This document shows, in pieces, positions 18,739 to 63,424 of a DNA stretch of 64,000 nt; the stretch's first letter is position 1; the number at the start of each line of letters is the position of its first letter. The notes beneath the pieces are model-generated. The model saw only the letters and a program-made list of their open reading frames with translations, was not told the DNA's origin and did no database searches. This stretch comes from Treponema brennaborense (GTDB lineage: Bacteria > Spirochaetota > Spirochaetia > Treponematales > Treponemataceae): the NCBI GenBank assembly GCA_023666275.1, contig JAMPCJ010000006.1, positions 81,976 to 145,975 on the forward strand, written 5' to 3'. Position numbers and translations under genes: made by a program.

Positions 18739-19053
18739 GCAGGCTGTTGCAGCACCGCAGCATTTGCATGACAGCGCGGAACGTTCTCCCTTGCAGCGGC
18801 TCTGACATCTGCCGTAATGACAATCGAACATCAGAGCAAATGAGGAACACGCATCTGTACAGATGCGTGCCGTAAATCCGTACAGATGCCGCTCCTTGTT
18901 AGCGCACTAACACAAACCTTATTACTGCTATAACACGTACCTTATTAGTACGGTATTGCACACACTGTCAGTGCGCTGTTGCAGACCGTGCTGACGCCGT
19001 ACATATCGTGCATCCGGCGCCGTTACTGATACCCGCACAACAGTTTTATGCAA
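18739..19053. repeat. Non-coding stretch dense in inverted repeats
   Basis: No gene is seen. A perfect 22-bp palindrome with half-site CACGCATCTGT lies at 18848-18869, and a third half-copy, TACAGATGC, at 18881-18889. TGTTAG/CTAACA lies at 18897-18912. CGTAC/GTACG and CACTG-T-CAGTG follow further on. Composition and density differ from other gaps in the window. Confidence 0.6.
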
Positions 19054-62510: not shown

Positions 62511-62745
62511 TTCTCTGTGAGGACGCATTTGCTCCGCACGTGAGAAACGGCACTTTTTGCCCGAAAAAACAGCGGTTTCTCACGTGAGAAACCGAACCGT
62601 CTTCTGTGAGCGAGGTGGCGTTTTGCAGTGAGGAGCGATCGGCTTCTCACTGCAAAACGGGTGCGTTCTCTGTGAGTATCGGAGTGATATCCAGTGCGTA
62701 CCGATTTTTTCTCACTGCGTATCGAAATTTTCTCAGTGAGAAATT
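62511..62745. repeat. Array of GTGAG/CTCAC dyads
   Basis: Ten GTGAG or CTCAC words lie within 225 bp: 62517, 62540, 62579, 62584, 62606, 62628, 62646, 62672, 62711 and 62736. They form a perfect 22-bp palindrome (62573-62594, half-site CGGTTTCTCAC), a 14-bp stem CGTTTTGCAGTGAG/CTCACTGCAAAACG (62619-62632, 62646-62659) and TTTCTCA-G-TGAGAAA near 62735. No gene is seen here. Confidence 0.75.
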
Positions 62746-62813
62746 CGAGTATTTCGGAAAATCGAAAAAACTTCTTTTTTCCTTGCCGATTGTCAATAAT
62801 TTTAATTTTTTTC

Positions 62814-62843
62814 TTGACGGTGTGCATATAAATTTATTATATT
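62814..62843 (+). promoter_or_regulatory. Promoter of the HU-HIG gene with a long leader
   Basis: TTGACG (62814-62819), 17-18 bp, TTATAT/TATATT (62837-62843). The leader to 63052 is about 200 nt and can fold, for example TCCGCAGGAA/TTCCTGCGGA near 62916-62950. Confidence 0.6.
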
Positions 62844-63052
62844 CCGAATCGGAAGTTTCCTCGAAACTCGTTGAGCTAAAAGGAAATTTTCGGGCGTTCC
62901 GTCGGAGCGTCCGAACTTCCGCAGGAATCGTGCAAGCTGTTTCCTGCGGAGAGCGGAAAGATTTCCGCGAAAATTTATTGACGGTTCGGGGTGTAGTCGC
63001 CTCGGAACAAGGAGGCAGCCTATCGCCTTGAACGCATTTTATGGAGGTACAA

Positions 63053-63424
63053 ATGCTGTACAAAATTTTGGTTCGGGAGAATCCTCTGGATCGCTCTCAA
63101 AAGAAGTTTTACGCCGCGCCGTCGTATGTGAATGACGTAAATCTTCGTAAGGTTGCGCAGGATATTTCAAAAAACTGCACACTTACTCCTGCCGACATCG
63201 CCGCCGTTTTGGAAAGTTTCCTTGACAAGCTTCCGGATTATCTGGAAGAAGGACACTCGATTAAAATGGGCGAATTCGGACGATTCAGGCTTTCGTTTTC
63301 GAGCAAAGGACAGGACAAGAAAGACGACGTGAGTCCGAACGACATTAAGAAATCTCGGATTATTTTTGTTCCGAGTCCCGCGCTGAAGACACGGCTTGAA
63401 GAAATCGCGTACGAGGAGCGTTAG
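63053..63424 (+). CDS. HU-related DNA-binding protein (HU-HIG type)
   Basis: A 123-aa histone-like protein of the variant HU group common in Bacteroidota. It begins MLYKILVRENPLDRSQKKFYA, has VAQDISKNCTLTPADIAAVLESFLDKLPDYLEEGHSIKMGEFG condensed around the HU helices, and GRFRLSFSSKG in place of the HU beta-turn. The arm lacks RNPxTG. ATG 63053 has GGAGG at 63043-63047. It is separate from the ordinary HU gene at 2428. The long leader and the upstream dyad array suggest tight control. Confidence 0.8.
   Translation: MLYKILVRENPLDRSQKKFYAAPSYVNDVNLRKVAQDISKNCTLTPADIAAVLESFLDKLPDYLEEGHSIKMGEFGRFRLSFSSKGQDKKDDVSPNDIKKSRIIFVPSPALKTRLEEIAYEER

Follow-up and report, generated by a model that had tools for sequence, protein, structure and literature searches.

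Several described systems resemble parts of the locus reported here. In ParB–parS and ParR–parC, the gene of a DNA-binding protein lies beside repeated or symmetric sites that have few genomic copies, and plasmid iterons (~22-bp repeats) likewise accompany such a gene. HU/IHF autoregulation involves proteins of the HU fold, REP/BIME and MITE elements are dispersed intergenic palindromic repeats, and CRISPR arrays combine short palindromic repeats with spacers. Here we analyse an array of short dyads next to an HU-HIG gene in a 64,000-nucleotide stretch of Treponema brennaborense DNA (hereafter the window), together with its counterparts in other spirochaetes. The literature that we searched, with most subscription papers outside its reach, held no description of HU-HIG-linked arrays, and a match to the exact 13-mer was irrelevant by title.

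The window locus shares with ParB–parS and ParR–parC both the adjacency of gene and sites and the small number of genomic copies. In contrast to these systems, however, the linked HU-HIG protein lacks ParB_N and HTH_ParB domains, no ATPase partner is seen at the window locus, and the sites form 22-bp ladders that differ in sequence between paralogues. HU/IHF autoregulation is matched by the protein fold (PF18291, AlphaFold and Foldseek) and by the promoter-proximal sites found here, but HU-HIG arrays are private, symmetric and clade-specific, and just one of ten canonical spirochaete HU genes tested carries an array. The 22-bp spacing beside a DNA-binding protein gene recalls iterons, and copy-dependent regulation is conceivable; the array nevertheless consists of dyads rather than direct repeats, no replication initiator was recognised, and several dispersed families occur in a single genome. 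A replication-linked role, one of the possibilities raised in the preliminary description of this DNA, found no support among the immediate neighbours scanned. Unlike REP/BIME and MITE elements, the arrays keep a 21–22-bp helical ladder, are tied to one gene family and vary with the clade of that family. A CRISPR assignment was rejected: the window array has a repeat of ~13 bp and spacers of ~9 bp, no cas genes lie beside it, and its neighbours are an ArsP permease gene and the HU-HIG gene.

Structure of the dyad array

Ten GTGAG/CTCAC words lie within 224 bp (starting at 62517, 62540, 62579, 62584, 62606, 62628, 62646, 62672, 62711 and 62736), whereas the density elsewhere in the window would give 0.09 (Poisson P ~ 1e-17); no other 232-bp stretch of the window holds more than two. 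The preliminary description had noted this cluster as far above chance, and the palindromes that it listed are present as well (Table 1), the 14-bp arms at 62619–62632 and 62646–62659 being exact complements. The spacing, noted there as close to two helical turns for some words, proved more regular than described: the dyad centres, located by reading the sequence, fall at ~62517, 62539.5, 62583.5, 62606, 62628, 62650, 62672, 62694, 62715 and 62736, with a step of 21–22.5 bp and a blank rung near 62561. The ladder places the ten symmetric dyads on a single face of the DNA. Elsewhere in the window, 18852–18900 has local self-similarity at a 23-bp lag.

Clustering through chance or low complexity is very improbable, and so is a purely structural element such as a cruciform or terminator. 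The dyad read from 62594 to 62573 did resemble a minus-strand terminator in one scan, but many dyads are symmetric through their centre, a better fit to duplex recognition than to hairpins. The word density, and a diverged second copy that retains most sites and differs by a one-unit indel, already contradict chance.

Table 1 Coordinates of the array, promoter, leader and gene in the window
Feature	Position	Strand	Remarks
Array of ten dyads, TTCTCASTGAGAA-like, core CASTG / CWGTGAG	62511..62743	no strand	22-bp ladder, one blank rung
Dyad 3, CGGTTTCTCACGTGAGAAACCG, perfect 22-bp palindrome	62573..62594	no strand	
Two adjacent dyads, 14-bp perfect (18-bp 94%) inverted repeat	62619..62659	no strand	
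101-bp exact match to the dispersed G000:C2 copy (L005 from 9617)	62634..62734	no strand	
Last dyad, TTTCTCAGTGAGAAA, 7-bp arms around 62736	62729..62743	no strand	
Sigma-70-like promoter TTGACG-18-TATATT	62814..62843	+	consensus match only, 10/12 positions
Structured 5′ leader, CGUCG-loop hairpin and GGAGGCAGCCTAT box	62848..63052	+	folding; related leaders
HU-HIG gene (PF18291), 123 aa	63053..63424	+	

Array copies in the same genome

The genome that contains the window (G000) is a 2.35-Mb draft in 18 contigs, in which arrays were counted by pattern searches. A second copy of the window array (C2:17470–17724) is 83% identical; it includes an exact run of 101 bp and differs by a 22-bp indel of one unit. 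This copy occupies the gap in which a CotH-like gene and a convergent gene end. Because this position is outside any promoter, the array is not solely a promoter operator. All four HU-HIG genes of the genome have a linked array, drawn from three motif families: CTCASTGAG arrays lie upstream of the window gene and of the gene on C13, a TTCATACGTATGAA array lies downstream of the gene at C15:8216 and a TTATCCTTTGGATAA array downstream of that at C18:71505. Dispersed copies of the three families were found on C2, C11 and C16 (CTCASTGAG), on C1, C10, C12 and C13 (TTCATACGTATGAA), and on C10 and C11 (TTATCCTTTGGATAA), so that each family accompanies one or two HU-HIG genes and recurs at 2–4 other places. 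The dispersed arrays occupy varied, mostly intergenic settings, one of them near cas2. The TTCATACGTATGAA array on C12 (L233:4086–4241) lies directly behind parB (L233:3045–4001). At L236 (4052–4172), L237 (4000–4120) and L238 (4035–4155) there are three copies of one array, and a 59-bp part of the L237 array is inverted relative to the other two, as if recombined between dyads.

Some copies have more than the array in common. For the TTCATACGTATGAA copies, homology continues into the flanks and takes in a terminator hairpin; for TTATCCTTTGGATAA, 371 bp are common to two copies. This indicates that arrays were copied as units. This flanking homology, the 101-bp exact run and the varied intergenic placement would suit MITE- or REP-like interspersed repeats, whose proximity to HU-HIG genes would come from ancestry, insertion preference or a mobile unit rather than from binding. 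We consider such an origin unlikely, given that no transposase was recognised in the flanking genes scanned beside the copies in this genome, that the helical period and dyad symmetry persist even where clades have entirely different array sequences, and that the association with HU-HIG genes is strong and holds outside the family too.

Association with HU-HIG genes across spirochaetes

Of 274 genomes of the family, 72 contain single TTCTCWSTGAGAA dyads, although not each of these matches must represent an array. Scanning 257 Gb of genome sequence for paired dyads gave 24 stretches, mostly from Treponema and other spirochaetes, and several of these arrays lie 100–450 bp from an HU-HIG gene. 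The two-dyad pattern had no match in viral contigs, and a phage or plasmid origin of the array was rejected. A match in Variovorax (L099) may be due to chance.

For the reverse test, HU-HIG genes were gathered by protein, and self-similarity was scored by lag without a fixed motif. Among 84 upstream regions, which include some loci fetched for their array, lags of 21, 22, 43 and 44 were prominent (29, 42, 30 and 30 regions, respectively); other lags mostly gave 3–18 regions, and shuffles gave 2–10. Arrays were called at a score of at least 8, a threshold chosen after the first lag spectrum and applied equally to all comparisons. With array-fetched loci excluded, upstream arrays were detected at 33/76 HU-HIG genes and 6/79 control genes. 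An array with a 20–23-bp lag lay within 500 bp of 53/75 HU-HIG genes, which come from related genomes and were selected independently of arrays, compared with 2/41 window genes, one of which shares the array under study (Fisher P 8e-13); the comparison lags of 26–29 gave 0/75. Because the genes of one family are related, these P values imply more independent cases than there are. The pattern extends to other spirochaete families (f5 and f11), in which 9/10 HU-HIG genes have upstream arrays compared with 1/10 canonical HU genes; this is a small sample, in which one array (L245) lies on a contig that had first been located through that array and another (L250) is weak, and the array stretch at the lone positive canonical HU gene looks coding. 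Upstream of the HU-HIG gene at L248 (G554:C166) is a very long AGAGATGCGCATCTCT dyad ladder of more than ten units. The HU-HIG gene on a T. saccharophilum plasmid also has an array.

The array lies upstream in 31 of the 53 loci, downstream in 20 and on both sides in two. About 18–20 HU-HIG genes have their array downstream, behind the terminator, and whole clades are arranged in this way; in the CTCASTGAG clade, by contrast, arrays lie at approximately −150 to −300, some 40 bp ahead of the −35 box. The multi-site or auto-regulatory HU-HIG operator suggested in the preliminary description, with conservation upstream of orthologues as its check, stands in part. Arrays of the same architecture are kept beside HU-HIG genes across spirochaetes, and in the CTCASTGAG clade they stay upstream near the promoter; one outcome that the description had named as refuting occurs as well, since the same cluster recurs at non-promoter places of the genome, and in other clades the array lies downstream, where it cannot serve autoregulation of a promoter. 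An operator acting at the promoter was rejected as the sole explanation: the array is tied to the HU-HIG gene and not to its promoter, and any role common to all clades must exceed promoter control. On the evidence of these sequences, ~22-bp ladder arrays of varying sequence generally accompany spirochaete HU-HIG genes, either upstream or downstream.

The companionship has exceptions. HU-HIG genes of the MKYRIVKR clade have no detectable array (L144, L146, L157, L142, L153, L156, L155, L138 and L147), and Bacteroidales HU-HIG loci gave no convincing ones. Several MKYRIVKR loci have, by eye, an apparent XRE-type regulator upstream. Dyad arrays are present in two drafts (G264 and G079) in which we found no clear HU-HIG gene. 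In Candidatus Scybalousia, similar 21-bp TTCTCASTGAGA ladders occur at L115 (4268–4364) and L117 (4249–4324); one of them is near a protein with a Por_Secre_tail-like end, with no HU-HIG gene among the scanned neighbours.

Array sequence and protein clade

The motifs seen in the arrays include TTCTCASTGAGAA, AAACGCASTGCGTTT, TTTCCASTGGAAA, AGTGGAAACGTWTCCACT, AAACTTCASTGAACTT, AAACGCTTAGCGTTT, TTCATACGTATGAA, TTATCCTTTGGATAA, TTATCTAGATGAA and others. Palindromes are enriched in them (83 observed compared with 27 expected from shuffles), with not every array visibly palindromic. The fraction of array pairs with common repeated 8-mers rises from 6% at less than 30% protein identity to 94–100% at more than 80%. 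Six of the eight same-genome paralogue pairs below 50% identity have no common repeated word; the window's own pair, counted among the six, nonetheless shares the core CTCASTGAG. The protein tree, in which many forks are unresolved, groups the motif classes (for example, TTTCCASTGGAAA at three genes in three genomes and GTGGAAACGTTCCAC at four genes in three genomes), and the presence or absence of an upstream array changes seven times on a tree of 81 rows. The nearest homologue of the window protein, at 65% identity, has an array with CTCAC..TATCG in common. These comparisons show that array sequence tracks the clade of the HU-HIG protein and that paralogues within a genome usually carry different arrays. 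Part of the sharing is accounted for by common descent of the locus. The dispersed copies, found for most cases examined, are the more independent argument. Other genomes bear this out in part: G164 has four arrays, one of them at an HU-HIG gene, and G114 carries its motif beside two HU-HIG genes and at two further positions. Of two variant motifs searched, that of G032 had no dispersed copy, only the linked array being found.

Dyads of 13–18 bp are typical for dimers of helix-turn-helix (HTH) proteins, and another DNA-binding protein, locus-encoded or global (for example, an HTH regulator), could bind the arrays and control HU-HIG among other genes. We judge another binder quite unlikely, as HU-HIG genes recur beside arrays on either side and no other common gene occurs in the scanned flanks. 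A single global regulator of all arrays was rejected, because paralogues of one genome usually have unrelated motifs and one such protein cannot serve them all.

The HU-HIG protein and a proposed role for the arrays

The window protein matches PF18291 with 105 bits (curated Pfam cut-off 26.2). In the AlphaFold model (pLDDT 96.3) it adopts an HU fold that includes two N-terminal strands, and the top Foldseek match in the PDB is 4fmr from Bacteroides vulgatus, followed by HU/IHF. HU-family proteins are generally weakly specific, with little sequence preference, so that specific binding by HU-HIG would be unusual. The usual HU arm motif, RNPxTG, is not present in the HU-HIG alignment, which makes a different mode of DNA contact likely if specific binding occurs.

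With modest confidence, we favour the reading that the array is a binding array linked to the HU-HIG gene beside it, each HU-HIG protein recognising its own array family. The protein, presumably dimeric, would occupy each of its own dyads as one dimer and bind cooperatively from rung to rung. At the window locus, with the array in front of the promoter, this would repress or fine-tune the protein's own gene, and such autoregulation from upstream is plausible; dispersed arrays would be extra loading or anchor sites for the same protein. HU-HIG proteins would then be locus-specific rather than general nucleoid proteins. The wider role common to all clades may lie in loading or anchoring at a small number of places, or else in maintaining copies.

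The same binding step could serve a different purpose, with HU-HIG and its array forming a centromere-like or anchoring site, for segregation or for uniting loci, to which the nearness of a promoter is incidental. The occurrence of arrays on either side of the gene, their small number per genome and the copy directly behind parB (L233) are consistent with such a site, but no NTPase partner was recognised beside the scanned arrays, the single parB neighbourhood excepted, and we find it somewhat doubtful. Array positions are known at contig level. More tentatively, binding of linked arrays by HU-HIG proteins may give spirochaetes several orthogonal chromosome-marking systems, in which each paralogue is sequence-specific, nucleates on its own ladder family (one ladder next to its gene and a few elsewhere) and controls or unites those loci, while protein and ladder co-diversify. 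That most HU-HIG genes stand beside their own helically phased dyad arrays, in sequences that vary from paralogue to paralogue and recur elsewhere, suggests many independent protein–site pairs. With the paralogue-specific arrays, pairs are at hand to test and swap in asking how specificity might arise in an HU-type protein, and the linkage provides a bioinformatic handle on HU-HIG function.

Promoter and leader of the HU-HIG gene

The promoter and foldable leader of ~200 nt that the preliminary description placed after the array are both borne out. The promoter, a consensus match, follows the last dyad by ~70 bp, and relatives have TTGCC(G)...TATTAT at a similar place. The leader (62848–63060) folds with −86.8 kcal/mol (z = −4.9), and none of 200 shuffles was equally stable. 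The start codon is most likely the ATG at 63053, the same as in homologues. Two leader hairpins are common to relatives, with changes on both sides at 7 of 15 pairs in ten related sequences and a structure drawn by hand, a level reached by 1 of 500 shuffles. Array and leader gave sub-threshold matches only in Rfam. As a secondary and less-tested finding, the leader is possibly a cis-regulatory RNA, which may add a second, RNA-level control of HU-HIG. A CGUYG-loop hairpin is present in 27/84 HU-HIG leaders compared with 0/84 reverse-strand controls. Together with a GGAGnnGCYUAU box, it occurs in the leaders of the window gene (62848–63060), L097, L130, L085, L127, L128, L091 and others.
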